DNA of 64,000 nt. Source: Arion vulgaris (lineage: Eukaryota; Mollusca; Gastropoda; Stylommatophora; Arionidae). The notes under the pieces were generated by a model. The model was not told the origin of the DNA, made no database searches, and saw only the letters and a list, made by a program, of their open reading frames with translations. Each line of letters begins with the position of its first letter. Positions within the stretch are counted from its first letter, which is position 1. Below are positions 2,185 through 38,606 of the stretch, piece after piece. The position numbers and the translations under genes were made by a program. The DNA is taken from contig CM036755.1 of assembly GCA_020796225.1 (NCBI GenBank), positions 83,895,803-83,959,802 on the forward strand. The letters are read 5' to 3'.

Positions 2185-2211
2185 GTCCGTAAGTGCTCAT
2201 TAACCACACTT
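2185..2211 (-). CDS. 27-nt micro-exon, cassette K-VWLMSTYG
   Basis: On the minus strand an acceptor (ATTTTACAG) precedes exactly 27 nt, followed by the donor GTAAGTAAC. With two nucleotides completing the previous codon and one left over, it reads V-W-L-M-S-T-Y-G. The split first codon becomes K if joined to the exon at 4929. It shares Trp-Leu and the GGAC 3' end with most of the other six micro-exons. It is the most downstream member in the window, and the transcript would continue left. The 27-nt length is symmetric, so skipping keeps the frame. Function is unknown. The evidence is sequence pattern only; no transcript was seen. Confidence 0.75.
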
Positions 2212-2278
2212 CTGTAAAATACAAAATAATTGAAATCAATATTGAACCATTGTTTGAATTAACGAATGTTTTTTGTTA

Positions 2279-2688
2279 CTGGTTATTGGTTACTAAACTG
2301 ACGTCATTGTACTCCAGGCAGACTCATAGGTGCTCAGTCTACCTCAACAGATATCGAAGAGTATGCATTCTAATGGTTCCTGTGACTCGCTGATTAAACA
2401 CACCTCTCGCTCTGCCTCTGAGGCATCCAGTTCGACTTGAACAACGGGTAACTACAAACTGCCTAAATCGCTTGATCGATTCAACATCGATTTTAGTGTC
2501 CTCATCCAACAGACAGTCACGAAGAGACCGAAGAATATCCCCTTATCCATCTTCAACTCCCCAACAATCGATGCTGTTGATGCAAGCCTGGCTGCTCTCT
2601 CATTACCGTATACATCCGCATGCCCAGGACAGTATATCCACGTAAGCCGCTGGAGGTTAGCAACTTCTATAGACGTCATCCACTCAAG
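2279..2688 (-). pseudogene. 5'-truncated RNase H end of family-A non-LTR element
   Basis: On the minus strand this encodes the last third of the RNase H domain and 3' tail of the same element family as 29118-30490, including WIYCPGHAD and GNERAARLAS. The final catalytic position, read GNERAD in relatives, is GNERAA here, so the Asp is lost. The copy begins abruptly near 2688 and ends at the family 3' motif TTAGTAACCAATAAC. It is a dead 5'-truncated insertion in the intron downstream of the micro-exon at 4929, in the same orientation as the micro-exon gene. A similar fragment lies at 38071-38536. Confidence 0.85.
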
Positions 2689-3036
2689 TAGTCATCCTGT
2701 TGTATCCATGTTTCTGTTAATGAACACCAATACTATTGATCTTAGTTCTTGTTTTTTCTGCAACAGACTATTTTTTAAATGTTAATTATGACTTACCTTT
2801 CTATTTAATTCGTTCATTTTCTCTCTCTCCCTCTTTCTTTCTATCTATCTTTCTTCTTCATTGCTTACGTGTGCATCAACATGAGAGTGCACACATTCAG
2901 CTTATAGAACTGTGAATTTGTGTACTTGAGTTTACTGGACCTCGAGGTTCCCATAGAGGAGACAATCAATTGACCGTGGATTACTGGCTGGTGTAAATGA
3001 GCATCAACATGTTGAAGAGGTCTATTCTTCTTTGAT
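2689..3036. other. Unassigned intron-like sequence
   Basis: No gene is seen. A pyrimidine-rich TC tract occupies about 2818-2866. Confidence 0.6.
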
Positions 3037-3131
3037 GTTTCTTTTACTGGTACACCTAGAGATTGTTTCTTTTACTGGTACACCTATAGATTGTTTCTTC
3101 TACTGGTACACCTAGAGATTGTTTCTTCAGT
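3037..3131. repeat. 28-bp tandem repeat, about 3.4 copies
   Basis: The monomer is GTTTCTTTTACTGGTACACC plus TAGAGATT, with one T/C and one G/T variant between copies. It is flanked by single-copy sequence. Confidence 0.93.
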
Positions 3132-3176
3132 GCATGCACTTTGTGGGAATTACGTATTGTTCTTACAAGACTGGGA

Positions 3177-3322
3177 ACCACCACATTATCCCCGAGACGT
3201 GCAGACCTACATAGAGTGTTGAGTGACCACCACATTATCCCCGAGACGTGCAGACCTACATAGAGTGTTGAGTGACCACCACATTATCCCCGAGACGTGC
3301 AGACCTACATATAGTGTTGAGT
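3177..3322. repeat. 49-bp tandem repeat, 3 copies
   Basis: The monomer begins GACCACCACATTATCCCCGA and ends TAGAGTGTTGAGT. Copies are nearly identical; the third has TATAGTG for TAGAGTG. It lies 45 bp from the 28-bp repeat. Confidence 0.95.
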
Positions 3323-3556
3323 GTGGAACTACTTCATGAAGCTGAATGGATATATAAAAGACATAGTCGTATGTATGAAACGACTGCGCAAGATCAATTT
3401 TGCATCTGAGAGTAAGAATGTTGAATGTGCAACCATTGAAGGAAGTAGTATAAGCATCTGTGGAGAAGAGACAAGATCATAATCACATCTCGATGTCAAC
3501 ATGGCATAATGTGAGAAGAATGGTGAGAGTTTTAACTGCTGGCATAAACCGATTAG
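3323..3556. other. Unassigned spacer between arrays
   Basis: Single-copy sequence without a convincing ORF or splice-flanked micro-exon. Confidence 0.5.
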
Positions 3557-4727
3557 CCATCTGAGGTAAAGGATGTTTAGTGTGTAACTACTACAAGATG
3601 TCTACTAGAAAAATGAGGTAAAGAATGTTTAGTGTGTAACTAGTGCAAGATGTCGACTAGACAGATGAGGTAAAGAATGTTTAGTGTGTAACTACTACAA
3701 GATGTCGTTTACACTGATGAGGTAAAGAATGTTTAGTGTGTAACTACTACAAGATGTCGTTTAGACTGTTGAGGTAAAGAATGTTGAGTATGTAACTACT
3801 ACAAGATGTCGTTTACACTGATGAGGTAAAGAATGTTGAGTGTGTAACTACTACAAGATGTCAACTAGACTGATGAAGTAAAGAATGTTGAGTGTGTAAC
3901 TACTACAAGATGTCAACTATACTGATGAGGTAAAGAATGTTGAGTATGTAACTAGTGCAAGATGTCAACTAGACTGATGAGGTAAAGAATGTTGAGTGTG
4001 TAACTACTACAAGATGTCAACTAGACTGATGAGGTAAAGAATGTTGAGTATGTAACTACTACAAGATGTCGACTAGACTGATGAGGTAAAGAATGTTGAG
4101 TATGTAACTACTACAAGATGTCGACTAGACTGATGAGGTAAAGAATGTTGAGTGTGTAACTACTACAAGATGTCGACTAGACTGATGAGGTAAAGAATGT
4201 TGAGTGTGTAACTACTACAAGATGTCGACTAGACTGATGAGGTAAAGAATGTTGAGTGTGTAACTAGTGCAAGATGTCGACTAGACTGATGAGGTAAAGA
4301 ATGTTGAGTGTGTAACTACTACAAGATGTCGACTAGACTGATGAGGTAAAGAATGTTGAGTATGTAACTAGTGCAAGATGTCAACTAGACTGATGAGGTA
4401 AAGAATGTTGAGTATGTAACTACTACAAGATGTCAACTAGACTGATGAGGTAAAGAATGTTGAGTATGTAACTACTACAAGATGTCAACTAGACTGATGA
4501 GGTAAAGAATGTTGAGTGTGTAACTACTACAAGATGTCAACTAGACTGATGAGGTAAAGAATGTTGAGTATGTAACTAGTGCAAGATGTCAACTAGACTG
4601 ATGAAGTAAAGTATGTTGAGTGTGTAACTACTACAAGATGTCAACTAGACTGATGAAGTAAAGAATGTTGAGTGTGTAACTACTACAAGATGTCGTTTAG
4701 ACTGTTGAGGTAAAGAATGTTTAGAGC
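3557..4727. repeat. 52-bp minisatellite, about 22 copies
   Basis: The monomer is GATGAGGTAAAGAATGTTGA, GTGTGTAACTACTACAAGAT, GTCGACTAGACT. Variant sites include GTGTG/GTATG, ACTACTACAA/ACTAGTGCAA and GTCGAC/GTCAAC/GTCGTT. The first and last units are the most diverged, and the central ones are nearly uniform, as expected for expansion from the middle. It ends about 195 bp downstream (on the minus strand) of the donor of the micro-exon at 4929. Confidence 0.96.
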
Positions 4728-4928
4728 GTAACCGTATTAATAGATCGACATTACATCGAAGGAAAATAATATATGTTATTTCTATCAACATTTGAAAGAG
4801 AAATCTGAAAGCAAATATAAATGTTGATAATGCTAGTTATGATGTCCCTAAAGTCATTTCTTCTCTTAGCATCTTCTAAAACAAACACACGACACAAGGC
4901 GTATATGTTAATAAGTTTAATTACTTAC

Positions 4929-4955
4929 TTGCACCAGCTCCACTCAACCAAAGAC
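4929..4955 (-). CDS. 27-nt micro-exon, cassette R-LWLSGAGA
   Basis: The minus-strand acceptor is a strong polypyrimidine tract ending TTCTTCAG. It is followed by 27 nt and the donor GTAAGTAAT. In the shared phase it reads L-W-L-S-G-A-G-A, with a split codon giving R when joined to the exon at 12102. The final codon is GCA (Ala) rather than GGA (Gly), and the last base is A instead of C. Trp-Leu is kept (Leu codon TTG). It lies between a 22-bp array on the acceptor side (about 50 bp away) and a 52-bp array on the donor side. Confidence 0.77.
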
Positions 4956-5003
4956 CTGAAGAAAAAAAAACAACAACAATGTAGTCAGCACAATTAATTG
5001 GAT

Positions 5004-5668
5004 ATTATAACAGTTGTCTCATTAAATTATAACAGTTGTCTCATTAAATTATAACAGTTGTCTCATTAAATTATAACAGTTGTCTCATTAAATTATAACA
5101 GTTGTCTCATTAAATTATAACAGTTGTCTCATTAAATTATAACAGTTGTCTCATTAAATTATAACAGTTGTCTCATTAAATTATAACAGTTGTCTCATTA
5201 AATTATAACAGTTGTCTAATTAAATTATAACAGTTGTCTCATTAAATTATAACAGTTGTCTCATTAAATTATAACAGTTGTCTAATTAAATTATAACAGT
5301 TGTCTCATTAAATTATAACAGTTGTCTCATTACATTATAACAGTTGTCTCATTAAATTATAACAGTTGTCTCATTAAATTATAACAGTTGTCTCATTAAT
5401 TTTATAACAGTTGTCTCATTAAATTATAACAGTTGTATCATTCAAATTATAACAGTTGTCTCATTAAATTAAAACAGTTGTCTCATTAAATTATAGCAAT
5501 TGTCTCATTAAATTATAACAGTTGTCTCATTAAAATTATAACAGTTGTCTCATTAAATTATAGCAATTGTCTCATTAAAATTATAACAGTTGTATCATTA
5601 AATTATAGCAATTGTCTCATTAAATTATAAAAGTTGTCTCATTAAATTATAGCAATTGTCTAATTAAA
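5004..5668. repeat. 22-bp minisatellite, about 30 copies
   Basis: The monomer is ATTATAACAGTTGTCTCATT plus AA. Later copies (after about 5390) are more diverged, with one-base indels and GCAATTGTC variants. The array directly abuts an APE endonuclease fragment at 5672, with no spacer. Confidence 0.97.
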
Positions 5669-5671
5669 TTC

Positions 5672-5880
5672 CACTCCACCCTATTGCCCTTCTCGGTCTA
5701 ATCTGAAGGTGTGATAACCTCTGATCTCGAATCTATGTTGGGCATTTAGATGGGTCTCTTGTATGCACGCAACATCAATCTCGTCTTCTGCAAGTCTTAT
5801 TGCGAGTGCTTGCTTTCTGTGATGAATACCTTCGGCATTCCATTGCACAATGTTTAATCGTCGATGGCCAGTACTTTGCC
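5672..5880 (-). pseudogene. APE endonuclease N-terminal fragment of a non-LTR element
   Basis: On the minus strand this reads as the start of an apurinic-like endonuclease: NIVQWNAEGIHHRKQAL, then CIQETHLN, then FEIRGYHTFR. The Asn and Glu that begin the EEP active site (N in VQWNAEG, E in QETH) are present. The rest of the domain (GDFN, SDH) is missing, because the copy stops at the 22-bp array. The reading continues toward higher coordinates but is split by a SINE at 5899-6103. It is dead by truncation. Confidence 0.85.
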
Positions 5881-5898
5881 GTATTGAACCAGTAGCTT

Positions 5899-6103
5899 GC
5901 CCGCGTGCCCAGCGTGTTCGTAGCGCGTTGGACTACGGGTGACTAGTCCTCTGTAAGCGGGTTCAACTCCGCGGAATGGCATAAAAGCTACAGGTTCCCC
6001 AGATTTACGGTGTTCGTGGCACCGAGCGGAAGGGTTACGATGTCCATGACACCGAGCCGAAGAAGTTTCAGCTCAAGTGCTTCTGGATCGGAAAAAAAAA
6101 ATA
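5899..6103 (+). mobile_element. tRNA-derived SINE, copy 1, with 12-bp target duplication
   Basis: A 205-bp element starts GCCCGCGTGCCCAGCG and ends in a poly-A tail. GGTTCAACTCC at 5960-5970 matches a Pol III B box, and TGCCCAGCGTG near the start is an imperfect A box. Flanking direct repeats AACCAGTAGCTT at 5887-5898 and 6104-6115 are the target-site duplication and prove insertion into the endonuclease element. A second copy is at 44264-44469, about 90% alike by eye. The source tRNA was not identified. Confidence 0.88.
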
Positions 6104-6115
6104 AACCAGTAGCTT

Positions 6116-7272
6116 TTTCCCATGGGCCTCGCACGCTGCTTTGCCTAGTTGGTTACACGGTCGTATCGAACCAGTAGTGTTTTTCCCGTGGCCCGCAACC
6201 ACTGGTTTGCTAAACCGGAAGACGGGGACCTTCAGTAGCATAAAGTGGGCCCCTTCGACGCATGGGGCCCGGCACTCGTCCTGCCCGACGGATCTCCACA
6301 GGCATAGCATCATATCGACATTCTGTATTAAAAATATTCATGATAAAATTTGGTCTATGCAGCCTTAGCATGGGTAACTACCTCACAACTTTCAGTGTCA
6401 ATTGGAACTCAGTTGCTTGTCTTTCGGCCGTGTGTCCGATTTCAACCAACGTTTATTGGGTTCGCTCTCCGTTTCCTTTGATTGCCCCCAGCCAGAACCC
6501 ACAAGGCAGTGGTTGCTATTTTCTTTCAGAGCAGCGACCCTTAGACGGCATGCACTCCCGGGCTTATGAGCGATATCTTCCCACAACCGGTCGTTTTAAT
6601 GAACATCTTGGTTTGTCGTCCGTTCAGGTTTTTTTACGATTTGCTCCGTTAGCCTTTGGTTGCCCCCAACCATAAACTACAAGGCAGCAGCGGTTCACTG
6701 CTAGGGAGGACAGACTTTTGTTTCATGGCACGCTTTCGTAGTTCTTTTGAACATTGGGCATATTTTTGCGGGCTTCGGACAGGAAATGTGTGAGTTGTTT
6801 AGGGATTTCCGGCCTCTGCATTGCAGTATGTGCATTTTTGCCACTTTTGTTCTCGGACTCTCGAACTCTGCTGTTTCGTACTCGTTTGAACTTGGGCTTA
6901 TTTTTCGGACTTCGGCCAGGAAATGTGTGCAGTGTTCAGGAAATTCCAGCCCATGCATTTCTTTTCTAAGTTTACACTACCAGCACTGATAAATTCGCAC
7001 GCTGCTGTTCCGTGCTTTTGAACTTGGAGATGTTTTTACGGACTTCGGACAGGAGATGCTTGATTTGCTCACGGATTTTCGGCCCCTGTATTGTTTTTCG
7101 TGTTTGCACTTCTACCTTACTTGTAGGTCTCCCGATCCCTACCCCTTTTGCCAGACCGGAACCTAAGGCTGTTGCCAGGGTCACCGCGTCGAGGTTGGGG
7201 CAGGGTCTTGGTTAGCTCGTCCCTTCGCTAACCCTGGCTCATATTACCGCCGTGACCATGAGCTTTTGAATC
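6116..7272 (-). other. GC-richer region joining the endonuclease fragment to 18S-like DNA
   Basis: On the minus strand this lies between the 18S-like segment and the endonuclease fragment. It may be the 5' part (5' UTR or ORF1-like) of that non-LTR element. It contains two internal duplications. A diverged triplication of about 135 bp covers roughly 6742-7120, and a TTGCCCCCAACC/AAGGCAG motif occurs near 6480 and 6660. Minus-strand ORFs of 62-88 codons exist, with recurring HFLAEVRK / HLLSEVRK motifs, but I recognise no domain. Composition is clearly less AT-rich than the flanking introns. Confidence 0.5.
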
Positions 7273-7273
7273 G

Positions 7274-7401
7274 TGTCATCTATTGAACCTCGATAGATTT
7301 AATGAGCCATTTGCGGTTTCACCTTGAGACAGTCTGTACTTAGACATGCATGGCTTAATCTTTGAGACAAGCATATGACTACTGGCAGGATCAACTAGAT
7401 A
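7274..7401 (-). rRNA. 18S rRNA 5'-end fragment (about 128 nt, pseudogene)
   Basis: The minus strand closely follows the start of eukaryotic SSU rRNA: TTGATCCTGCCAGTAGTCAT, then GCTTGTCTCAAAGATTAAGC, then CATGCATGTCTAAGTA, then GGTGAAACCGC and AATGGCTCATTAAATC. The canonical CTGGTTGATCC is CTAGTTGATCC here, and there are further changes after ATTAAATC. Similarity fades near 7274, so this is a fragment, not a functional gene. CGAGGTTC and GATGACACGAT are reminiscent of molluscan 18S (from memory, low confidence). Confidence 0.85.
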
Positions 7402-7760
7402 GCTTTCATGGACGTGACTGGACGGACAATGCTCGGAGTAGGGAGACAGCGCTCTGTGCAGAGCGGATCCCGACGTCCCCGGCGAAAATGCGAAATTGAT
7501 GCGAAACGACAGAGCGCTCGCCTCCCACCGTTTTGCCGGCAAGACTGCGTCTCGCTAAGCAAAGAACGACACCATATTTCTATATGCGAACCCACAAGCT
7601 CGTTGCGAGAGCCGGGCCTTTTTTACGAGACCACCGACGAGCTTTTAAAAGTTTAGAATGATTGTATCACATCACGACCGAACAACTTCGATATACGGAC
7701 ACACACACACCGCCAGTAAGACCGCGCGAGCGAGCGAGTCTTAATAGCAGAAGCTACATT
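7402..7760 (-). other. Probable 5' external transcribed spacer remnant
   Basis: This segment lies directly upstream of the 18S start on the minus strand and is noticeably GC-richer (GCGAGCGAGCGAG, CACACACACAC near 7700-7735) than surrounding DNA. Position alone suggests 5' ETS of an rDNA unit. No independent family signature can be seen by eye. Confidence 0.45.
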
Positions 7761-8681
7761 GTCCCTTATTCGCTGGGAGCCTCATTCACTTCGTCGCGTG
7801 AAGAAGCGGAGTGTACGCTCAGTCGTTAGAGACTATGCACGCAATTGGCTATCGACACTGGGGAACCGAGCTCGCTTACTGGCTCGCCCCTACAGTTATT
7901 TTCAAAACGAGGAGGCACAGTTTGCGAGGTTTTACGAGCAGATGCATGGAGAGAAAACGTATTGTGGAAGAAGCCGGTTGTGAAGCAACGTGGCATGTTT
8001 CTTTAAGGGACTTTACAAATAGATTTAAATTAATTTTTCCGTGCGAAGAACGGATAAACTGTTAGTTAGTAATAAAATAAAGTGCGTTCTCTAAATCGAT
8101 TAGAAAGCAAAGAATTCTCTGGGAATGTTAACGACGAATCTGATTGGCTGCGTGTCTTTGTGACGGCAAAATGTGTTCGCGGTAGGGCAGTGCGTGTTAA
8201 CAGTTGTAAACATTGCTGATACACACTGTGCTAAAATTGTTTAATTAGATCGCAAGACTGTGCAATACATGTATATATATAACTCATGGACCTGAATATG
8301 GACCCACAAAAACCAATTTTAACAGTTTTCTGAGTGCAGGGTGCCTCCACTGGTTGATTGGACTGTGTTACCAGGATCGTTCAAAACCACTTTTCACAAC
8401 TGTTCTTGCCATGATTGATCTTAATATAGAGATGACCTCCTTACCCTATTTGACCTAGTTATAGTTAATATCATTTATATAATTAACCACCTGCAGAGCA
8501 CATACTTGAAGACTTCCACGAATATGACATACTAAGGTAAATCACTGGCCTAACGAAGCAACACTCGACATAAAACTAAACGGACCTCTGTGTGAGCTAC
8601 AAAAGACAGTGAACTTTACACAAGAGAAAACATTGAATATATAGACAATATTTCAAACGAAAGAAAGGAAGGAAGGAAGGA
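7761..8681. other. Unassigned sequence
   Basis: No gene recognised. Short plus ORFs at 7759-7983 and 7811-8065 overlap in different frames and show no domain. A GGAA-rich tract (GAAAGAAAGGAAGGAAGGAA) ends at about 8680, beside the MITE. Confidence 0.5.
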
Positions 8682-9344
8682 TTAAGGGGGGATTCTGGTC
8701 TTGAAACTTTTTTCGTTGCTTTGATATTAATGTTGAATTTGTATAACAATTTTGAAAGATTGTGACTTTGAATAGTAAAAGTAAATTAGAAAAAAAGTCA
8801 ATCGCGTTGCCATGGAAACAATACAAAATGGCCGCCAAGCACACAATTTCAAATCCCTAAGGCTCTGAAGTTAATGAATATAAATGAATTCTGCTTTCAC
8901 TCTAAGGTGAGCAATTGTAATATCTACAAAATTACACATCATTTTTAGGATATATCAAATATTACATTTTTTATGAATTTGTGTGTAAACACACCCCCCA
9001 AAAACAGCTTTTTTTGACCAAATTTTGAGGAAATTTTTACCCAAAATTTATTAAAAAATTAGATATTTAATATATCTAAAAATGATGTGTAATATTTTAG
9101 ATATTACAATTGTGCACATTAGAGTGAAAACATAATTCATTTACATTCATTAGATTCAGAGCCTTAGGGATTTGACATTTTTTTTTGGCGGCCATTGTGT
9201 ATTATTTCCATGGTAACACTGACATTTTTTTTTTTTTTTTCTACTATTCTAAGTCATACTCTTTCAAAATGCTTATACACATTTTATATTAATATGAAAA
9301 CAACGAAAATAGATTCTTGATTTTCAAGACCAGAATCCCCTTAA
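8682..9344. mobile_element. Foldback MITE with TTAA target duplication (piggyBac-like)
   Basis: TTAA at 8682-8685 and 9341-9344 flank a 655-bp element with long inverted arms. The left arm begins GGGGGGATTCTGGTCTTGAAA, and the right end is its complement, TTTCAAGACCAGAATCCCC. The arms match inward over about 280 bp, for example CCATGGAAACAATACAAAATGG versus the complement of GTATTATTTCCATGG. The loop lies near 8990-9050, with CACCCCCCAAAAACAG. No transposase ORF is present, so it is non-autonomous. The TTAA duplication is the piggyBac hallmark, though another family is possible. Confidence 0.82.
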
Positions 9345-9725
9345 CCACCTGAATGTTGCTGACCGTCTTGCTATAATTGATCTTCTTTCTATAGTTAACC
9401 AAATGATTGATGTATTTACATGTAATATTTGTATAGAAATATACTCATCAATAAAAACAAACCCAGACAAAACATGACAGGAACTGGAAAACGCAAGTGG
9501 CATGTACGGATATAATTTCCGAGATCATTGCCACTGGAGCATAGTACACCACCTTACAAACATTTTTCATTTCTACCCTCAGAAAACTCAGCACAAAGTC
9601 ATTTTTACTGATGATAACTAGGTGCATCGGGCATAACAAGATCCAAACGATGAGACCCCTGATTGTCAGTCCCTGTCGAATATACACTAGAGAACGACCC
9701 TGTCTGTGGCGTTGAAGTTAGGTGT
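9345..9725. other. Unassigned sequence
   Basis: Single-copy. A 79-codon minus ORF (9448-9687) has no recognisable motif. Confidence 0.5.
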
Positions 9726-10034
9726 TCACCTCTCGTTTAAAGCGTTCTCGATTCACTTCTTTATGGAGCCATCACGATATTTTTGCTAATCTCTAGTTTA
9801 AAGCGTACTCGATTCACTTCCTTATGAAGCCATCACGATATTTTTGCTAATCTCTGGTTTAAAGCTACTCGATTCACTTCCTTATGAAGCCATCACGATA
9901 TTTTTGCTAATCTCTGGTTTAACGCGTACTCGATTCACTTCCTTATGAAGCCATCACGATATTTTTGCTAATCTCTGGATTAAAGCGTACTCGATTCACT
10001 TCCTTATGGAGCCATCACGATATTTTTGCTAATG
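9726..10034. repeat. 61-bp tandem repeat, 5 copies
   Basis: The monomer runs TCTGGTTTAAAGCGTACTCG, ATTCACTTCCTTATGAAGCC, ATCACGATATTTTTGCTAATC. One copy lacks a base (AAGCTACTCG). The first and last units are the most diverged. Confidence 0.95.
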
Positions 10035-10317
10035 TGGCTAATTTGATTGAAGATGAAATCGACTTGCTAGTCTTATCGAGATGAACGAGAAAACTTATAG
10101 AGATAACTTGTTTAAGTTGAGAACGTCAAATAACCCTAGACAGTTCAAAATCGAGAAGAACAGACTGGAAAACAGCTGGATAATGTTCATTGGACCTGAG
10201 AGTAATTTCTCCAAACCGTTCTGTCCTGGGCAACTCACTAAATCTCAGACTTTAAAAACAAAATTAAAACATAGGTGTGCATCGATGGAAGTTCAGATAC
10301 ATGAATAGAATGAAAAC
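10035..10317. other. Unassigned sequence with a 75-codon ORF
   Basis: An ORF runs at 10081-10308 on the plus strand, Lys/Asn-rich and ending before the mariner-like MITE. No domain, splice context or upstream signal supports it as a gene. Confidence 0.4.
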
Positions 10318-10581
10318 TACAGGGTGCTCAACTTAAAAGCAGCCTGTGAATGGAGCTAATCTAACATATATGTATGGAAATGGAAAGGTTCAGTTATGAC
10401 GTAGTATAGGTCAAGGTTGTGTGACGGTGTGTAATTGTAGTGCGGGAAGGGGCGGTGAACAAATGTGATGTAGGACAAGCTAGTCAGAAGCGGTTTAAAT
10501 ATTAAATAGACGAGATGCAATGCGCACCTGGTAAATTTATATTTATCACTGGGGCTGCTTTTAAGTTGAACACCCTGTAGA
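10318..10581. mobile_element. 260-bp MITE with TA duplication (Tc1/mariner-like)
   Basis: TA at 10318-10319 and 10580-10581 flank terminal inverted repeats of about 26 bp. The left end is CAGGGTGCTCAACTTAAAAG and the right end, reversed, is CAGGGTGTTCAACTTAAAAG; both continue CAGCC. There is a single mismatch (C/T). The TA duplication and CAGGGTG ends fit Tc1/mariner MITEs. The interior has no ORF. Confidence 0.88.
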
Positions 10582-10803
10582 AATGGCAGTCAGGTCTAAA
10601 TGTAATTTGAACAAAAGTAACATCAGTTATTGGTAAAATTGTCCATTCTCAGTAAATACTGTTAATAGTGGTTGTTTACTTGGCTAAACCTGGACACTTC
10701 CAGCGAGATTCACACAAAGTAAATTATATACGCGTGTGCTATATAGACATACAGTCAATTAGCATTAAAGAAATGACAAGCTTTAGAGGGTGCATCCTTG
10801 GAG

Positions 10804-11160
10804 ACCATCATTAAGAGACGAAGATGGAGGTGGTTCAGACATACATGTCGTATGCCAGTGGGGGCAGTGGCTAGGACAGCTCTCCAGCTCTCAGATAGAC
10901 AGCGGATGGGAAGAGAAGACCTGGGTGTAAAAAGGAAACATGGAGAAGTACGGTGGAGAGAGAGTTGAAGGAGTGTGGTCTGACGTTGGAGACGGTTGGT
11001 AGAAAGGCAGCAGAACGGCAACAGAGGAAGTCTCATGTGGAAGCCTTATGTGGAAGTCTCATGTGGAAGCCTTATGTGGAAGTCTCATGTGGAAGCCTTA
11101 TGTGGAAGTCTCATGTGGAAGCCTTATGTGGAAGTCTCATGTGGAAGCATTATGATGTCA
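10804..11160 (+). pseudogene. C-terminal fragment of an RTE-like non-LTR reverse transcriptase
   Basis: In frame this reads TIIKRRRWRWFRHTCRMP, then GAVARTALQL. After one frameshift near 10950 it reads RELKECGLTLETVGRKAAER followed by HVEALC. This is the familiar C-terminal tail (K-RRW-W-GH--RMP, P-TTWRR, W--LV-ALC) after the thumb of RTE-like elements. The polymerase core is absent. The last codons (SHVEALC) have been copied into a 26-bp minisatellite at 11029-11153, so the ORF continues as a repetitive tail to 11330. Confidence 0.82.
11029..11153. repeat. 26-bp minisatellite derived from RT C-terminal codons
   Basis: About 4.8 copies of AGTCTCATGTGGAAGCCTTA plus TGTGGA. The first unit overlaps the codons for S-H-V-E-A-L-C of the RTE-like fragment, so the array grew from element coding DNA. 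26 is not a multiple of 3; the plus reading cycles through frames without a stop. Confidence 0.93.
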
Positions 11161-12003: not shown

Positions 12004-12101
12004 AACGAAGGAGATCGCAGCACCTTAGATATGTCCAGAATACAATGAAAATAATTCAAACTGAAATTAAAAACTGACTAAATAGTTATGTTGTTACTTA
12101 C

Positions 12102-29117: not shown

Positions 29118-30490
29118 CCAAGTCAAGGCTGACCTACCCCGTGTAATCGTTGATGAACATACCATCGAGCGCAGAGACAGGTTGTGCTTTCTTGGAATAA
29201 CCTTTGATCGTAGTCTATCTTTCAAACATCATATTGAACAGACGATACAACGGTGCAAGCGTGGTCTTGCTGCTCTCAAAGTTATGGTGGCCGCACACCT
29301 TGAGCAGAGACTGCTTGCCGTTTTGTTCGATCGGCTGGTTATGTCAGTGGTAGATTACGGACTCAGAATTCTTACCATATCAAGATCACAATGGGAACGA
29401 CTCGAACGGGTTCGGAATGAAGGTATGCGTATAGTCCTGGGCTGCACTAGAGATACCTGATTGTGAAGATGAGAAATATGCTTGGCCTTCTGTCACTACG
29501 CTCCCGTCATGCAATCGCCCAAACCAAGGCATATATGCGGGTTACTTCGGATAAGAGACATCCACTACACAAGAACACTAATGATGTTAAGGGTACGAGA
29601 ATCAAGCGTGGCATGTCGTGGATGACCCAGGCTGAGAGAAACTTTGGCCAGGTGATTACGGTTGCGACCCTACCAAAAGGGAAGAATGGATCCCAACAGA
29701 TGGTAGCATGATCAAATATCTCAACGTTATCATTACTCTTGGAAGAGAATGTAGAGATTGGGGCAACATGAAGGCTGATCTCGCAGTTAAGCAACTGATA
29801 GAAGATAATGCAAGGGATGATGATGTTGTTGTATATACCGATGGGTCGGTTCAACGTGGTGAGAAATCCGGCTGGGGTTTCTTGGCTACTGCGCATGGTA
29901 GGGTTGTTGCAGAGCGAAGTGGGGCATACAGGACAACTACTTCTAGTATGAGGATGGAGGTTGAGGCCGTTACTGCTGCCCTCCATTGGATCTCTGGGAC
30001 TTCATTTACTGGGGCAGTTGTTGTATCTGACTCTCAGTCGATGCTTCACAAGATCCATAAGTGCAGGTTTCGGTATGAGCGGATGTCGTCTATAGAAGTT
30101 TCTAGCCTCCAGTGGCTTACGTGGATATACTGTCCTGGGCATGTGGTTGTTTGCGGTAATGAGAGAGCGGACAGGTTTGCATCAACAGCATCGCTTGTTG
30201 GGGAGTTGAAGATGGATAAGGGGGATGTTCTTCGGTCTCTTCGCGACTGTCTGTTGGATGAGGACACTAAAATTGATGTTGAATCGATCAAGCGATTTAA
30301 ACAGTTTGGAGTTACCCGTTGTTCAAGTCAAACTGGATGCCTGAGAGGCAGAGTGGGAGGTGTGTTTAATCAGCGAGCCACGGTAACCATCAGTATGCAT
30401 ACTCTTCGATACCTGTTGGAGGAGACTGAGCACCTATGGGTCTGCCGGGAGTGCAATGACGTCAGTTTAGTAACCAATAACCAATTAAAT
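29118..30490 (+). pseudogene. Family-A element fragment: RT thumb plus complete RNase H
   Basis: Reads RLTYPRVIVDEHTIERRDRL, LGITFDRSLSFKHHIEQTIQ, YGLRILTISRSQW, VLGCTRDT, then a linker. From 29708 an uninterrupted RNase H follows: VVVYTDGSVQRG (Asp), SSMRMEVEAV (Glu), VVVSDSQSM (Asp), CPGHVVVCGNERADRFAS (Asp). All four acidic residues are in place. The C-terminal HLWVCRECND (CxxC) follows. The 3' end is GTTTAGTAACCAATAAC. 5'-truncated. This is the best-preserved RNase H in the window, and the fragments at 2279-2688 and 38071-38536 are truncated relatives. Confidence 0.9.
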
Positions 30491-30495
30491 ACAAG

Positions 30496-31230
30496 CGTTT
30501 CTTTAGCGGACAACTATGCTTACCTTGGTAGCACCTTATCCAGATCGACAAACATAGACTCTGAGGTCAACATTAAGATATCCAAACAAGTGCTGCGTTC
30601 GGAAGGCTGTGTGTTACTGTGTGAGAGCGGAACGGGATAAGCGTAACCCCAAAACTGAAAGTTTACCGGCCCATAGTGCTAACCACTCTGATGTACGCCA
30701 GCGAGACATGGACAATGTATAGCAGACACGCAAGAAAAATAAATCACTTCCACACAAGCTGTCTACGCAGACAACTAAATATAAACTGGCAGGACAAAAA
30801 TTCCAGATACCAAAGTTCTCATAAGAGTAAAGATCCCAAGCGTCAACACCCTGTTACAGAAGGCTCAAGTGAAAAGAGCCGGTCACGATGCTCTGATGAC
30901 TGATAAACGCACCACAAAACAGCTGATGTATGGCAAGCTCGAATGGAGCAGACGTTCTGCTGGTGGACAGAAAAAACCACTTTAAAGACACTCTTAACAT
31001 GTTTCTGAAATGCTTCGATAAAGAAACCACGTTCTGGGAATCTCTTGCACAAGATATCCAAATGTGGCGCTGTAACAACATGAGAGGATTTCGCATAGAT
31101 GTGTCGTTGAAGCATAGAGAAAACGATCTGAACAAAAACAACAGAACACACTACACCCACATGTCTAACCTCGTTCATGTATGCCCGACCTGTGGTAGGG
31201 AAGTGCGTTTTGGGATTTAACTCTACAGTC
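30496..31230 (+). pseudogene. Family-C non-LTR element, C-terminal part
   Basis: Reads YAYLGSTLSRSTNIDSEVN, then in shifting frames LTTLMYASETWTMYSRHARK, FHTSCLRRQLNI, LMYGKLEWSRRSAGGQKK, FWESLAQDIQMWR and VHVCPTCGREVRFG. The last is a zinc-finger-like CPTCG motif, whose second half (LYSHLRTHQR) has been amplified into the 62-bp array that follows. It completes the element begun at 27580 and is split from it by 28800-30495. Confidence 0.85.
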
Positions 31231-31878
31231 ACCTCCGAACACACCAGAGAAGTACAGCAGCCCTTTGAGTTTGAGGATTGTACACTACAGTCACCTCCGG
31301 ACACACCAGAGAGGTACAGCAGCCCTTTGAGTTTGAGGATTGTACTCTACAGTCACCTCCGGACACACCAGAGAGGTACAGCAGCCCTTTGAGTTTGAGG
31401 ATTGTACTCTACAGTCACCTCCGGACACAACAGAGAGGTACAGCAGCCCTTTGTGTTTGAGGATTGTACTCTACAGTCACCTCCGGACACACCAGAGAGG
31501 TACAGCAGCCCTTTGTGTTTGAGGATTGAACTATACAGTCACCTCCGGACACACCAGAGAGGTACAGCAGCCCTTTGTGTTTGAGGATTGTACTCTACAG
31601 TCACCTCCGGACACACCAGAGAGGTACAGCAGCCCTTTGTGTTTGAGGATTGTACTCTACAGTCACCTCCGGACACACCAGAGAGGTACAGCAGCCCTTT
31701 GTGTTTGAGGATTGTACTCTACAGTCACCTCCGGACACACCAGAGAGGTACAGCAGCGCTTTGTGTTTGAGGATTGTACTCTACAGTCACCTCCGCACAC
31801 ACTAGAGAGGTACAGCAGCCCTTTGTGTTTGAGGATTGTACTCTACAGTCACCTCCGGACACACCAGAGAGGTGCAGC
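31221..31878. repeat. 62-bp minisatellite derived from an RT zinc-finger segment
   Basis: About 10.6 copies of TCTACAGTCACCTCCGGACA, CACCAGAGAGGTACAGCAGC, CCTTTGAGTTTGAGGATTGT, AC. One frame of each unit reads LYSHLRTHQRGTAAL, the expected completion of the CPTCG finger just upstream, so the array grew from element coding DNA. A GAGTTT to GTGTTT change separates the first three units from later ones. Confidence 0.96.
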
Positions 31879-32990
31879 AGCAACCGTCTGTGGCTGTTGT
31901 CATCATTTCTGCCATGGACAACTATTTGTTTATATAATGAGCCCCAGCCGGTTCTACGGAGTTCATACACCGTTGACTGTTCCTCTAGCAGATCAGGCAA
32001 GAAAATACGCATACAAAAGAAGAGGTAGAGGAGAAAAGAGAATCGGACGTAAGAGACGACCAGGACAGAGATGGTTTAGAAGAAAGACAGATCGACTTGT
32101 CCTCAACTATCTTCGTATTGGCTACTGTTGTAGCTACTGGCCATTGAAAGGAACATGGAACAATGCTGGCAGGTTTGTTTATGATGTTTCTGAGGGCTTC
32201 CAATCCATGCAAGAGACTGTTGTTGTGGTTATCGACTTGAAGAATTTTTCATAACAAGGTATAGATTCGTTGCTAAAGTGCGAGATTAATCACCTTGGCT
32301 GGTGAACTGCTTCTTTAATAGAGAAAATCGTTGCACTTCGTTTAGGAACATGGCCTTCGGATACTGCACGTATATGCCCGGGATTACCCCAGGGTTCTTC
32401 TCTATCTCCCATGTTGTTTAATATTTGCACAGCAAATGTAGCTAAAATTCAGCCAACCGGGTTGTGTCGGATATTTACTTTTGCAGAGGACATCTTAATA
32501 TATAAGACTGGGCCAGATAGATGAGAGATGGTTGAAGATATTGAGAAAATATTGTATATCATCTAGCGTTAGTGTAGAATGTAGATAGTCTCACCATCAG
32601 GCCAATCATTACAAAGTCGTGTATGTTGTGGTGTTCTTTGAATAATTCCATAGTCAAGGCTGAACTATGCGGAGTCACCTTTGATACAGTCCATCAAGCG
32701 CCGTGACAGGCTGCACTATCTTGAAATAACTTTTGATCGCAATCAATCTTTCAAACACCATGTTGAACAAACGATGCAACGTTGCAAGTGCGGTTTTACG
32801 GCTCTCAAGGTTATGATAGCCGTACACCATGCGCAGAGACTACGTGTCCTTTTGTTCGATTATCTTGTTATGTCCGTGGTAGGCTCAGCATTCTCGCGAT
32901 ATCACAATGTGAACGACTCAAACGTTTTTAGAATGACGTCATGCGTATAGTCCTCAACTGAACTACAGATACCCCTAGAGAGACCTGCAA
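31879..32990 (+). pseudogene. Family-A related fragment with internal deletion
   Basis: Begins with a basic stretch (KRRGRGEKRIGRKRRPGQRW) like the family-A N-terminal leader, then YDVSEGFQSMQETVVVVIDL (RT motif A, Asp present), LPQGSSLSPMLFNICTAN, FAEDILIYKTG (motif C with Glu for the first Asp of FADD), then FDRNQSFKHHVEQTMQRC and thumb remains. The endonuclease and the RT fingers are missing, so the leader appears joined to the palm by deletion. Ends near 32990 where the opposite-strand family-B fragment starts. Confidence 0.8.
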
Positions 32991-33004
32991 GCGTGATCTT
33001 CTTC

Positions 33005-34440
33005 TTTTTTTGCGTTCGGTTTAGTTGCTCGTCTAAACCATGAGATGGGCTGCCTCTATGAAGCTGCATGTCAGTTGGAGTTCTTCGAGAGTTTCCCATA
33101 GCTTGCTCTGTAATCTTTGTTCACGAGGCCATGTTTCGTTTCGTTGATGTATGTATGATGGACATGACTGCAGAATGTGTTCTGGAGTCTGTTTTTATGT
33201 CTGGCATGCACACTGTGCAGTCTGAGCAGGTTTTATTCTGTGCATGTGGAGGTTGAGCCTGCTGTGACCTGTTCTTAGGCGAAAGATTGTTGTTTGCTGT
33301 TTTCTGTTTAGTCTGCTGATGGGATCTTGTGGGTGTTTGCTGTGGGTATGTTGCCTCTACAACTCTTTGTATTTTTGCTTGATATGTGTCTTGATTTCTG
33401 GTAGTGACATTGAGTGTTTGTGTTGTATAAGTTTTGTTCCCTCCTTAGCCAGCCTGTCTACTCTCTGATTTCCTGGTACGCCACAGTGGGCTGGTATCCA
33501 CTGCAGAATAATTTTGTTGTGTTCTGAGAGCTAGTTTAGCTGTAGTGTTAGCTCTCTTTCCATGTTATCTTGTGGTTCCCTTTGTGTGGCCTGTAGGACT
33601 GACAAGCAGTCGCAAAGGAGGACAAGTTGGTTGTTTTGGATGTTTCTTTACTGCAGTATTTTTGAGGCATCCACAATTGCCTGTTGTTCGGCTCCAAATA
33701 TTTCTTGAGAGTTCTCCAGTGGCACCTGCATTTTTTAGTGCGGTGCCATTTTGGGAAGTATGAAGATGGTTCAGGCCCCTCCTTTCCTCGCTGTCGTGTC
33801 TGATGATCCGTCTGTGTATATATGGGTCCACTCGGGATGGGTGGTATGAGGTGTTAATGTGTTCTAGTGTCTTTGCTCTCAAGATGGGATCTGTTTCTTC
33901 ACACTTTTTGTCTACCTCTGCAATTGTTGTTATCACTGTAAAGTTGGACTGCAGGTCTGTAGGTTGCTGGTCATTTGAGAGGTTGCCGGTGTTTTTTGCA
34001 GAGAGCGATTTAGCGCTTGAATTTTTCTATTAATGGAAGTAGTTTTTGTTCCCTGCGTTTCCCTGTCTCTCAAGGCCAGCAGTTACCTCCACATCTTTGA
34101 TTTGTGTACGTCTCAGACCTCCGGTGATGATTCTGAGGCCTATGTTCTGTATTTTGTCTAGCTTGTATAGATTTGTTTGTGTTGTAGTTGTGTAGGCTCC
34201 TGTGCCATACTCCAGTTTTGGACGTACATACCCTGTGTATATTTGGCGTGTGGTGTTTGCATCTGCACCCCAGTGGGTTCCTGCTAGTTTTTTCATGAGT
34301 CTTAATCTTGGTGTGGCTTTCCTTTGTATTTCTTATATGTGGGGGACCCGATGTAAGTCTTTTGTAAGTCAATTTTATTCCTAGATAGGTAGGGTTGTTC
34401 TCCTTTGGTAGAAGCGTGAATCTAACTTCATGCAGCATAG
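33005..34440 (-). pseudogene. Family-B element fragment: RT thumb and RNase H
   Basis: Minus-strand reading: NNPTYLGIKLTYKRLTS (about 34400), MKKLAGTHWGADANTTRQIY, VRPKLEYGTGAYTT, DKIQNIGLRIITGGLRR, then RNase H remains including WIPAHCGVPGNQRVDRLAKE (about 33420-33515; Val-Asp where Ala-Asp is usual), and a Cys/His tail. It is collinear with 24720-26000 and with 46745-48100. Many frameshifts. 5'-truncated at about 34440. Confidence 0.85.
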
Positions 34441-34614
34441 ACAAAAATCATTGGGATCTGTTGGCCAAACAGGCAAACATGGCAGTGAGGGTGGCTCAAA
34501 AGAAAGTAAGACAAACACCATCACATATGGAGGCAAAAGAGAGCGCAGAGCCAGAGAGATAATCGTATGTATCAAATACAGTCTGTAGTGTCACCTACAG
34601 CAACCGTGGCAAGG

Positions 34615-35580
34615 ATTAGTTAGTATTTCTTCCTTTCGTGCCAAAGGCGGCCACATAGGGCAGAGGTTTTAGATCTCCATGTGATGCAGTTCTTTTCTAA
34701 CAGTTGGAGATCTTGTATGGTTTTACATCCCAATAGTTTACTTTCTTGTAGGATTGTTCTTCGTAGGGTGGCTTTAGGTCTTCCACGTTTTCTTTTCCCA
34801 ACTGGTGACCACATAAGGACTTGTCGATTTAGTCTCTTTTCGTCTAATCTAAGAACATGACCTAAATATTTCCACCTTCGTTTCCTTATAATATTTAATA
34901 CGGGTTGTTGGTGTGTTCTATCTCTCACTGTGTTGTTAGAAACGAAATCACTTCATTTTAATTTTAATAATTTTCGGAGACATTTATTCTCAAAGCTGTC
35001 CAGTTTCTTATCAATTTTCTCTGTTGATTTCCAACTTTCACAACCGTAGGTCAGTACAGGAATCACACATGACCTAAATAATTTAACTTTTGTGCATATA
35101 CTAAGGTCTTGAGATTGCCATATATTTGTTAACTTAGTGAAGGCTGCTAGCTGCTATAGCAATTTGAAAGTTTATTTCTTTCATCGTGTCTCCGTTAATT
35201 GACATTTTGTTACACAAATATGTAAAATGTTTAACTTTCTGCGGTGTTTGGCCATTTATTACGATGTTGTCTATTGAGTTTGTGAAGTCAATAATTGTGG
35301 TCTTGGCAGAAGTAATCTGGAGACCAACCTGATCTACAAGTGTGCAAAGTTTGCTCGTTAGTTTGTGAGTTCCTTGTGTGTTTGAATTCAGTATGGACAC
35401 GTCATCGGCAAAGTCAAGATCAAATAGTCTGCTTTTATTAAGTCATTTGATGCCCAGTTTACCATCTTGGGTGCATTTGCGCATGATCCAGTCTATATAT
35501 ATCCTAAAAAGCATTGGTGACATAATGCAGCCCTGCTTCACACTCGAATTGGCTATAAACCAGTCTGAGTTTCCTGTATC
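34615..35580 (-). pseudogene. RTE-like RT C-terminal half
   Basis: Minus-strand reading: GCIMSPMLFRIYIDWIMRKC (about 35540-35480), LDFADDVSIL (motif C, about 35420), LQITSAKTTIIDF, KHFTYLCNKMSINGD, an intervening thumb with SWKSTEKIDKKLDS-type sequence, then RKRRWKYLGHVLRLD, KRKRGRPKATLRRTI and a terminal ALCGRLWHERKKY. Motif C is intact, but the fingers and motif A are absent. The 5' truncation coincides with a 41-bp minisatellite at 35570-35735 built from its CCVRTDTGN codons. Confidence 0.85.
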
Positions 35581-35735
35581 AGTTCTTACACAGCAGGATG
35601 ATCAGTAATGTTTCCTGTATCAGTTCTTACACAGCAGGATGATCAGTAATGTTTCCTGTATCAGTTCTTACACAGCAGGATGATCAGTAATGTTTCCTGT
35701 ATCAGTTCTTATACAGCAGGATGATCATTAATGAT
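35570..35735. repeat. 41-bp minisatellite at the RT truncation point, 4 copies
   Basis: The monomer is TTTCCTGTATCAGTTCTTAC, ACAGCAGGATGATCAGTAAT, G. On the minus strand each unit reads SCCVRTDTGN in one frame, the segment just before the RT motif-B block, so the array expanded from element codons at exactly the point where the element copy ends. Confidence 0.94.
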
Positions 35736-36041
35736 TATCAACTTCAATATTTTCATGACAGTAACAGCAGATACTATTATTCAGCACGGAACAAACAACG
35801 TCAAGCAAAACCAATGTTCTCCTGAGACAAAGAGGCTAGTGATGATAAGTTAAATACTGCCATACGCGTGTAGTGATTTCTTGAAAATAAACTTTACAAT
35901 GACAATATTATATTTCCCTTCACAACTACATCGCCTTTATTAACAGTAAGACATAAATGCAAGTAACTATATCTTCCAATCATTTACTGCTTCTATAAAA
36001 CAATAGTACTAACGGACTTAGTCATTTCAACACAAATAGTT
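35736..36041. other. Unassigned intron sequence
   Basis: AT-rich single-copy sequence on the donor side of a micro-exon. Nothing recognised. Confidence 0.5.
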
Positions 36042-36047
36042 ACTTAC

Positions 36048-36074
36048 GTCCTTGGCTTCTCTTTAACCAAAGTC
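36048..36074 (-). CDS. 27-nt micro-exon, cassette R-LWLKRSQG
   Basis: The minus-strand acceptor has a pyrimidine-rich tract and GTTGGGCAG, followed by 27 nt and the donor GTAAGTAAC. It reads L-W-L-K-R-S-Q-G in the common phase, with a split codon giving R when joined to the exon at 38580. Leu is TTA, the end is GGAC. Frame 0 has TAA at codon 4. Confidence 0.78.
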
Positions 36075-36199
36075 CTGCCCAACAAAAGAATTGAAACAAA
36101 ATTGAATGGAAACTCTATTGCTTTAATTACAAATATGAATAGCAGCATGATTGACACAATTCAATGCTTTTTCTACTCAAGTCCAATTGTAGTACAAGT

Positions 36200-36450
36200 A
36201 GGACTCTTTCAGTCTCCAAGTACTAATAAACAATATCCAATGAGATCTTCCAAGTGACCCATCAGCAAGCAAGCATAACTGGGACCCATCTTAGCGCCCA
36301 TGGTCACGCCACTAATCTGATCAAAGTACTCCCCATTGAACTCGATGGAATTCGTGGTGAGTACCAGTTCAGATAAGCGGGTACGAGTAGTGGTGGCAAT
36401 GGGCTGATGGGGGCGCTGCCTCGTTCTAATTCTCATCCCCCTCTCCCCTT
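36200..36450 (-). pseudogene. Penelope-like element RT fragment
   Basis: Minus-strand reading: LVLTTNSIEFNGEYFDQISG, then VTMGAKMGPSYACLLMGHLE. The block F-Q--G-AMG-KMGPSYA-LFMG is characteristic of Penelope-like RTs and unlike non-LTR RTs. Only about 75 codons remain; the catalytic YxDD and the GIY-YIG endonuclease are not seen. It lies in the intron upstream of the micro-exon at 36048. Confidence 0.82.
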
Positions 36451-36914
36451 GGCACCACTAGACATTAGACCATCATGCTTCTCTCTTTCATCGCGAATAT
36501 GCACCTACGTGTAGCCACTCTTGACATCGCTTTTCATACTCTACTTATTGATATGGCTTCGCTCTCATACTTGTGGGAGTCACTTGTGACTATAGCTCTA
36601 ACCAGCTGGTATTGCAGTCTGTAGTTGTCGGTTTCTTGCTCATCTATTTATGCATATTGCCCCAGTAGGGCTCATGTCTCTTCGGCTTTACGTTTGTTGA
36701 ATTTCCACCCACTTGGGTATGCTGCTTGAATACTATCTAATGTCAAGTCTCCTCTTTTTCATATTCCACCATTCTTACCATCCTCTTCCGCACTTCACCC
36801 TCCGGCAACACTGATGGTGTAGATTTCATTTGGAAGGGAGTTGGGGGAGGAGTAGGGCCGCTGTGTTTCAAGTTGGTATGGCTCTAATTACCTCCCCTCC
36901 TACTGCACCACATT
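36451..36914. other. Unassigned sequence
   Basis: No domain recognised. It could include decayed Penelope-like sequence, but I cannot show it. Confidence 0.45.
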
Positions 36915-37657
36915 TAGTAAAGTTGCCTCCCCTTTCCCATCTTCACCCATCATACATTTGTTCTATTGTCTCCCCTTTCTCATCTTCACCCATCATAGGT
37001 TTGGTCTATTGTCTCCCCTTTCTCATCTTCACCCATCATACATTTGTTCTATTGTCTCCCCTTTCCCATCTTCACCCATCATACATTTGTTCTATTGTCT
37101 CCCCTTTCTCATCTTCACCCAGCATACATTTGTTCTATTGTCTCCCCTTTCTCATCTTCACCCATCATACATTTGGTCTATTGTCTCCCCTTTCCCATCT
37201 TCACCCATCATACATTTGGTCTATTGTCTCCCCTTTCCCATCTTCACCCATCATACATTTGGTCTATTGTCTCCCCTTTCTCATCTTCACCCATCATACA
37301 TTTGGTCTATTGTCTCCCCTTTCCCATCTTCACCCATCATACATTTGGTCTATTGTCTCCCCTTTCTCATCTTCACCCATCATACATTTGGTCTATTGTC
37401 TCCCCTTTCTCATCTTCACCCATCATACATTTGGTCTATTGTCTCCCCTTTCTCATCTTCACCCATCATACATTTGGTCTATTGTCTCCCCTTTCTCATC
37501 TTCAACCATCATACATTTGGTCTATTGTCTCCCCTTTCTCATCTTCACCCATCATACATTTGGTCTATTGTCTCCCCTTTCTCATCTTCACCCATCATAC
37601 ATTTGGTCTATTGTCTCCCCTTTCTCATCTTCACCCATCATACATTTGGTCTATTGG
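36915..37657. repeat. 43-bp minisatellite, about 17 copies
   Basis: The monomer is CTATTGTCTCCCCTTTCTCA, TCTTCACCCATCATACATTT, GGT. Strongly pyrimidine-rich on the plus strand. All three plus frames are open, because 43 mod 3 = 1 and one monomer series has no stop, giving ORFs of 233-286 codons that are repeat by-products. Confidence 0.97.
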
Positions 37658-38070
37658 AAGCGGCCTGACACCTTCGCTTTCTACTCCTGATGTTCTGACC
37701 TGGCCTCGGGGCGGACAGGTGGGTATAAACCTTTCATATATGTAACCTTCCTTTCGATCCAAGATTTAGTTCATCTAGGATTCATTGTGTGTGTGTTTGT
37801 ATGTTATCTGAAGAAGACTTATAGTCGATACGTTGGATTTGTGTATTTCGGTAACCAGTCGGTCGATTCCTTAATATGTTTCCTTTATTCAATCTGTAAT
37901 CTAAGAGAAGTGCATAATATTTGAATACGATTCTGACAAGACTTTCTATGTAGACTATACAACACATTTCCTAGTCAACAAAACATATGCGTATAGTCAG
38001 TTTCACAGTAAGTTTTCTGGTACTATAATGCGCAATGTCTGCATCACATTTTTAAACATTATTAATATTA
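37658..38070. other. Unassigned sequence with a hammerhead-like motif
   Basis: Around 37808-37840 lies CTGAAGAAGACTTATAGTCG followed by ATACGTTGG. This resembles the CTGATGA-stem-GAAAC core found at ends of Penelope-like elements, with two core changes. The rest is unassigned. Confidence 0.4.
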
Positions 38071-38536
38071 GTTATTGGTTACCGAACTGACGTTATTTTA
38101 TCTCCGGGTAGACATATATGTGCTCAGACGCCCCAAACAGATATCGAAGAGTATGCATACTGATGGTTCCCGTGGCTCGCCGATTAAACACACCTCTCAC
38201 TCTGCACCGCTGGCATCAAGTTCTACTTGTACAACGGATAACTCCAATCTGCTTAAATCGCTACATCGATTTTAATGTCCTCATCCAACAGACAGTGGCG
38301 AAGAGAATGAAGAACATCCCCCTTATCCATCTTCAACCCCCCAACAATCGATGCTGTTAATGCAAGCCTGTCCGCTCTCTTATTACCGTAAACACCCGCA
38401 TGCCCAGGACAGTATATCCACGTAAGCCTCTGGAGGTTAGAAACTTCTATAGACGACATCCACTCATACCGGAACCTGCCCTTCTGGATCTTGTGAAACA
38501 TCGACTGAGAGTCAGATATAACAACGGCCCGAGTAA
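38071..38536 (-). pseudogene. 5'-truncated RNase H end of family-A element
   Basis: Minus-strand reading: MFHKIQKGRFRYEWMSSIEV, LTWIYCPGHAGVYGNKRADR (RNase H final Asp kept), LKMDKGDVLHSLRHCLLDED. Homologous to 30010-30480 and to 2279-2688. It ends at the family 3' motif (GTAACCAATAAC). The 5' truncation at about 38536 lies 38 bp from the donor of the micro-exon at 38580. Confidence 0.87.
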
Positions 38537-38579
38537 ATAAACATTACTAAGAATGAATTGAATGTATTCCGTTACTTAC

Positions 38580-38606
38580 GTCCGCTTTCTTGTGCTAGCC
38601 ATAGAT
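38580..38606 (-). CDS. 27-nt micro-exon, cassette x-LWLAQESG
   Basis: The minus-strand acceptor is TTCATTTGCAG, followed by 27 nt and the donor GTAAGTAAC. It reads L-W-L-A-Q-E-S-G in the common phase. The split first codon ends in AT and depends on an upstream exon not found here. Leu codons are CTA; the end is GGAC. It is the most upstream member in the window. No further AG/27/GTAAGT locus is seen between here and 64000. Confidence 0.78.

Follow-up and report, generated by a model that had tools for sequence, protein, structure and literature searches.

Along the minus strand of a 64,000-nucleotide stretch of DNA from the gastropod Arion vulgaris (83,895,803–83,959,802 of contig CM036755.1, here C3, in a 1.52-Gb assembly; the whole stretch is referred to here as the window) lie seven 27-nt loci that probably serve as internal coding exons in a single, very long micro-exon gene. 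The product of this gene would be a tandem nonapeptide-repeat protein, and the gene itself would belong to a clustered family, most likely made up of a cluster on this chromosome and a relative on another (C26). Each locus, referred to here as a cassette, consists of 27 nt between a YAG acceptor and a GTAAGT donor, in seven of seven cases on the minus strand. In order of transcription, the features are as follows.

1..64000, minus strand: portion of the putative gene; cassettes were found past both window ends
38580..38606, minus strand: 27-nt micro-exon cassette encoding LWLAQESG and a split codon; transcribed first among the seven of the window
36048..36074, minus strand: 27-nt micro-exon cassette LWLKRSQG
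21258..21284, minus strand: 27-nt micro-exon cassette SYLNTYAA, the most divergent of the seven, with Tyr replacing Trp and Ala replacing Gly
17960..17986, minus strand: 27-nt micro-exon cassette RWLAIPDG
12102..12128, minus strand: 27-nt micro-exon cassette KWLTEPAG
4929..4955, minus strand: 27-nt micro-exon cassette LWLSGAGA
2185..2211, minus strand: 27-nt micro-exon cassette VWLMSTYG, the final one within the window; the run continues below coordinate 1

An earlier note on this DNA had listed seven AG/27 nt/GTAAGT loci on the minus strand, and all are present letter for letter. Its residue counts, taken in phase 2+1, were reproduced (aromatic at codon 2 in 7/7, Leu at codon 3 in 7/7, and Gly in 5/7 or Ala in 2/7 as the last full codon), and the donor extension GTAAGTAA that it claimed for six of the seven is found in six. 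The motif columns are conserved, and identity in the free columns of the exons is close to random (0.31 versus 0.27). Separating the seven are introns of 2.5–14.8 kb, which contain minisatellites and fragments of long interspersed nuclear elements (LINEs).

A chance origin of the set is ruled out by its spacing, its column information, and the consensus and matrix scans. The bare count of seven is not decisive, because shuffled sequence also reached seven at length 27 (AG-27-GTAAGT count in 200 dinucleotide shuffles: mean 1.2, largest 7). Exactly 27 nt upstream of GTAAGT, a YAG is present at seven of nine places on the minus strand of the window versus none of eight on the plus strand (binomial probability for the 27-nt spacing 1.5e-9; 8e-8 when multiplied by 55 lengths). 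Summed over columns, the information content of the seven amounts to 23.3 bits, versus 10.9 +/- 1.6 (largest 21.9) for random sets of seven drawn from the region's 268 distinct AG-27-GT segments, the seven included, and none of 50,000 such sets reached 23.3 bits. A consensus allowing at most three mismatches gave six matches, all among the seven (21258 was missed), with 0.00 expected. In a matrix scan of the window the seven scored 36.7–53 bits, the next place 7.6 and the best plus-strand place 4.5. Scanning with the acceptor half (TGG required) recovered 6/7 and with the donor half 7/7, each with one plus-strand stray, and these scans find no loci of this kind in the window beyond the seven.

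The earlier note had proposed extending the search beyond the window, and cassettes do continue on both sides, on the minus strand at window-relative positions 66120, 75722, 82075 and 85877, and from -3306 down to -103184. Over 264 kb, a matrix built from the window's seven alone gave 22 places of at least 8 bits on the minus strand (15 of them, some weak, in addition to the seven) and none on the plus strand; a matrix built from 62 cassettes gave 20 of 27 nt on the minus strand, 14 of which belong to its training set, and none on the plus strand. This 20-cassette run spans 83,792,618 to 83,981,705 on the minus strand of C3 (~189 kb) and includes a weak cassette, EWIAGLDK (10.3 bits). A scan open to exons of 12–80 nt returned 17 of 27 nt and one of 30 nt (C3 83,831,330), along with two strays of 12 and 39 nt, which were dismissed.

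Across the genome, the exact pattern AG N5 TGGYTR N12 GGACGTAAGT has 16 matches, versus none for its reversed control; 15 are on C3 at 79.47–86.01 Mb and one is on an unplaced contig. A more general cassette pattern has 76 matches versus 13 for the reversed control: 55 in C3 79.3–86.0 Mb, 13 within 89 kb of C26 (20.000–20.089 Mb), one unplaced and seven elsewhere. Among the rows of a two-mismatch search with zero or one mismatch, 49 of 54 fall in the C3 stretch, two on C26, one on an unplaced contig and two elsewhere. The C3 set used below comprises 69 cassettes (67 distinct), of which 64 are rows from the mismatch search (79.3–86.1 Mb) and five come from the matrix scan; left out were seven rows of a 37-bp tandem array, rows elsewhere, EWIAGLDK and the 30-nt exon. 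Over 6.7 Mb these 69 form seven runs (of 15, 7, 19, 12, 2, 6 and 8), cut at strand changes or at gaps >300 kb. Strand coherence within a run is by construction, because runs were cut at strand changes; what is informative is how few cuts the cluster requires. At the same C26 locus are one 24-nt cassette (KWLKTRG) and a further 27-nt cassette (RWVKDRFR), and cassettes of 24 and 30 nt both preserve the reading frame. The window pattern had no exact matches in viral-contig and genome-contig collections.

The reading phase is carried by the wider set. Among the window's seven, phase 1+2, too, is free of stops in 7/7, and frame 0, the remaining phase, is interrupted in 7/7 by a stop whose position never changes; the chance of this is ~2e-4 under a coding reading. 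On the same seven sequences, a codon model in phase 2+1 is ahead of the next frame by 7–11 log units, a lead that falls to 2.1–2.6 log units without the splice-proximal columns, and an independent-column model outfits every codon model by 2–7 log units. The claim in the earlier note that the synonymous pattern reflects protein-level selection is therefore unproven from the seven alone; constraint itself is supported by the wider genome, which, going by stop codons, settles the phase as 2+1. Any stop is found in just one of the 67 distinct C3 cassettes in phase 2+1, and in 31 and 45 in the other two; for C26 the counts are 0/13 in phase 2+1, 5/13 in phase 1+2 and 6/13 in frame 0. Frames 1+2 and 0 are ruled out as the coding phase by these counts, and the 2+1 phase, the symmetric micro-exons and the W-L nonapeptide unit that had been proposed are supported.

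Within-column shuffling gives the same picture. In the free columns of 62 distinct C3 cassettes, there is one stop in phase 2+1 versus 9.0 +/- 2.2 expected (2000 shuffles, minimum 2), and there are 25 in phase 1+2 versus 19.2 +/- 2.7. Taking the general-pattern cassettes of C3 and C26 together (66 distinct), one stop is seen versus 9.9 +/- 2.4, and none of 2000 shuffles was as low. The frame-0 stop is at its fixed place in just 39 of the 62 distinct C3 cassettes, and in 41 of the 67. Codon 3 in the 66 general-pattern cassettes is Leu in 57, Phe in 6, Ile in 2 and Val in 1. The pattern constrains neither the first base of this codon, which is C in 41, T in 22, A in 2 and G in 1, nor its third, which is A in 44, C in 11, G in 7 and T in 4.

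Read in this phase, the unit is best written x-W-L-x-[ST]-x-[DE]-G-[K/R/Q]. In the 67 distinct C3 cassettes, Trp is present in 64, Leu in 56, Ser or Thr at position 5 in 36, Asp or Glu at position 7 in 32, and Gly in 62. At a guess, short strands (xWLx[ST]) would alternate with tight turns (x[DE]G[KR]). Searches with the joined peptide gave a best E of 1.1 against the PDB and a best Pfam score of 17.8 bits, under that entry's cut-off of 22.1. Bicycle proteins are named for their paired CYC motifs, and no CYC occurs in the cassette translations examined (C3 and C26).

Completing the unit is the split codon, which at 62 joins between successive detected C3 cassettes encodes Lys 17 times and Gln and Arg 13 times each. 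Over all ordered C3 pairings, 65% of joins would give Lys, Arg or Gln, and 1% would give a stop. The usual last base of an exon is G; the last cassette base is A in 30, C in 29, G in 7 and T in 1 of the 67 C3 cassettes, and A in 36, C in 22, G in 6 and T in 2 where the pattern leaves it free (n=66, C3 and C26). T in this position would create a join stop with 47 of the 67 C3 partners. From these statistics the C3 joins look suited to free combination, and they may actually be used in that way. Amidated peptides, speculated on in the earlier note, gain a little from Gly followed by Lys or Arg at 28/62 joins; the residue preceding Gly, Asp or Glu in 32/67 cassettes, makes no fixed C-terminal motif, and the Gly-Lys/Arg joins seem too irregular to favour amidation.

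No flank is common to all of the window's seven, by pairwise comparison or by a search for shared words. Cassettes 2185 and 36048 match across 71 nt, exon included (76%, E 4e-7), and 17960 and 21258 match across 115 nt located several hundred bases upstream (70%, E 1e-6). A dispersed repeat, occurring genome-wide with the same flanks as the earlier note had considered, is rejected on this lack of a common flank and on the confinement of 68 of the 76 general-pattern matches to the C3 stretch and C26. On C26, neighbouring cassettes do have flanks in common (best pair 75% over 203 nt), which we read as probable local tandem duplication of exon and flank together. Minisatellite units in the introns there (C26:20006001–20016000) resemble cassette flanks, and arrays and exons behave as though amplified from the same units. 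On C3, the exon and donor site of one cassette form a tandem array with a 37-bp period (C3:85375662–85376027, minus strand), represented by seven rows of the mismatch search.

The proposed mechanism starts from what can be read directly: the cassettes, their splice-site context and phase, the few strand changes, the clustering, and the flank-inclusive duplication on C26. Each cassette would be a symmetric exon between phase-1 introns and would supply one nonapeptide unit. The RNA of each run would be spliced from many such 27-nt exons and, with one unit per cassette, the mature RNA would therefore encode a tandem nonapeptide-repeat protein. Because the cassettes share length and phase and the C3 joins are tolerant, frame and unit would survive the skipping, gain or loss of a cassette. 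Serial joining in one RNA, optional skipping and the equation of one run with one gene are what we infer from this arrangement; that the product is secreted is a guess. Cassettes would multiply by duplication of exon and flank, as is visible at C26, and decay is visible on C3, where one cassette carries a stop and another has become a tandem array.

Searches for the ends of the gene and for constant exons bear on this scheme. The first exon with a signal peptide that the earlier note suggested looking for did not emerge: none with a phase-1 donor was found on the coding strand in the regions scanned. Scans near the C3 and C26 runs gave no conventional exon assignable to the cassettes, and self-comparison for constant exons was uninformative, 69% of the 264 kb being covered by another place within it. 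At C3:84004782–84004886 (minus strand), an exon-like stretch of 105 nt has one open frame and a GTAAGT donor; it lies 23 kb upstream of the first cassette, and its phase is not directly compatible with the cassettes.

Several observations weigh against the favoured reading of serially joined coding exons. Simple scans found no signal-peptide or start exon in window positions 38607–51879, in the 38 kb past the 5'-most C3 cassette or in the 4.9 kb that precede the 5'-most cassette of C26, and no terminal exon was recognised. The stop depletion on C26 alone is modest (0 versus 2.3, with 69 of 2000 shuffles as low), and C26 pairings are less tolerant at their joins (Lys, Arg or Gln 52%, stop 5%). 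The C3 cassette 85612624 (plus strand) has a stop in the coding phase; in sequence it resembles an intact cassette at 85624966. Conservation at the TGG, T and GG columns is partly built in, because the search patterns contain them, and most scans sought 27 nt only. The genome-wide total of the two-mismatch search (130) is no higher than that of its reversed control (155). Mutually exclusive exons likewise form homologous series of equal length.

That last point leads to a Dscam-like arrangement, in which two constant exons would enclose a single nine-residue slot, filled in each RNA by just one of the cassettes. Arrays of the Dscam type are tandem series of mutually exclusive exons that are homologous and share a single length and phase. 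The cassettes are likewise homologous, equal in length and phase and serial on one strand, and their other residues vary while the W-L core is fixed. We nevertheless judge this arrangement unlikely. Within 380–400 nt on either side of the window's seven there is no shared selector word above chance: an 8-mer is common to at most 3/7 upstream and 4/7 downstream, versus 2.7–2.8 in random sets (P 0.63 and 0.075). The introns are long, cassettes of 24 and 30 nt occur, the varying last base would give different residues with a single downstream exon, and joins of successive cassettes yield Lys, Arg or Gln in 43/62. The reviewed precedent for 27-bp exons, Schistosoma 10-3, is described as built of multiple such exons.

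The large repeat-filled introns, the stop-bearing cassette, the 37-bp tandem array and weak cassettes such as EWIAGLDK would all suit relic exons, remnants of an ancient repeat gene that are passively kept or copied and of which few are still used. Set against this are the intact splice sites of the window's seven, a phase open in 66/67 C3 cassettes, and, in the window, motif columns that are kept while the free exon columns are near random; we regard relic exons as very improbable. It would be more surprising still if the loci served as 27-nt poison exons or belonged to a long non-coding RNA, and TGGYTAR, which is conserved, were an RNA element. The frame-0 stop shared by all seven window loci and the better fit of independent columns than of any codon model point that way, but outside the window the stop is not fixed, phase 2+1 is open in nearly all C3 and all 13 C26 cassettes, and at codon 3 the class of amino acid is retained with the third base varying freely.

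The favoured gene of serial coding cassettes most likely works like the Schistosoma mansoni 10-3 antigen of the MEG-4 family, by analogy in manner of working and with no claim of family membership. By its published description, 10-3 has 27-bp exons, matching the 27-nt length here, and additionally has 81-bp repeats; it also has a signal peptide (PMC3961193), whereas simple scans found none for the cassette genes. Flatworm micro-exon genes (MEGs) are summarized as having symmetric exons of 6–36 bp that make up ~80% of the coding region, with products mostly secreted or membrane-anchored (PMC5825161, PMC4350168), whereas the cassettes are nearly all of 27 nt and mutually homologous. An operational definition requires a series of four or more exons, each <70 nt and a multiple of three in length (PMC7653826); the candidate exons include 20 of 27 nt over 189 kb of the minus strand and one of 30 nt. 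MEGs are stated to be apparently restricted to platyhelminths (PMC4350168). In aphid bicycle genes, many micro-exons occur, nearly all internal ones starting at codon position 2, and megacycle genes have >100 micro-exons (PMC9168663). The C3 and C26 cassettes have the same codon-position-2 start, and differ in their fixed 27-nt unit, which the passages of that account do not describe for bicycle genes. A literature search at the level of abstracts and passages found no description of a family such as this one, which is no proof of absence.

This is a real and striking micro-exon gene family, for which a combinatorial reading may hold. The fullest form of that reading, a cluster of giant genes each with ~20 independently skippable, order-tolerant cassettes, giving many isoforms per animal or tissue, MEG-like though possibly outside flatworms, and kept by exon-plus-flank duplication, is a tentative possibility. 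Serial homologous 27-nt coding exons over ~190 kb would be an extreme test of splicing, requiring recognition and ordering of twenty tiny exons in kilobase introns. In this family an exon unit evolves in modular fashion, with the same length, the same phase and joins that are mostly tolerant of order, with duplication of neighbours including their flanks at one locus (C26) and no common flank at the other. It provides a tangible system in which to explore a repeated origin of micro-exon genes and to test for combinatorial diversity of proteins. Genes of this sort are easily missed, and micro-exon genes have been described as a challenge for gene finding (PMC7653826).

The remainder of the window is rich in repeats. 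Scans for tRNA and Rfam families gave no matches in the window. Tandem arrays of many different units cover 41% of it, and at several cassettes the local repeats end 29–99 bases short of the exon. LINE fragments of several families, on both strands, occupy 20184–20642, 22013–30640 and 46789–51721; Pfam matches to reverse transcriptase, RNase H, endonuclease and DUF6451 fall in the first two stretches (four of five scanned open frames had a Pfam match), and the third was assigned by eye only. At 40826–41461 (plus strand) is a 211-aa open frame containing about three 102-bp repeats, adjoined by a 175-aa frame without a Pfam match (40091–40618). Flanking the cassette run on C3 is a 2.2-kb inverted pair, 96.5% identical (83763459–83765643 and 84007623–84009814). 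Positions 51880–64000 are a single array of a 43-bp minisatellite with ~282 copies, which extends over >12 kb and runs off the window.

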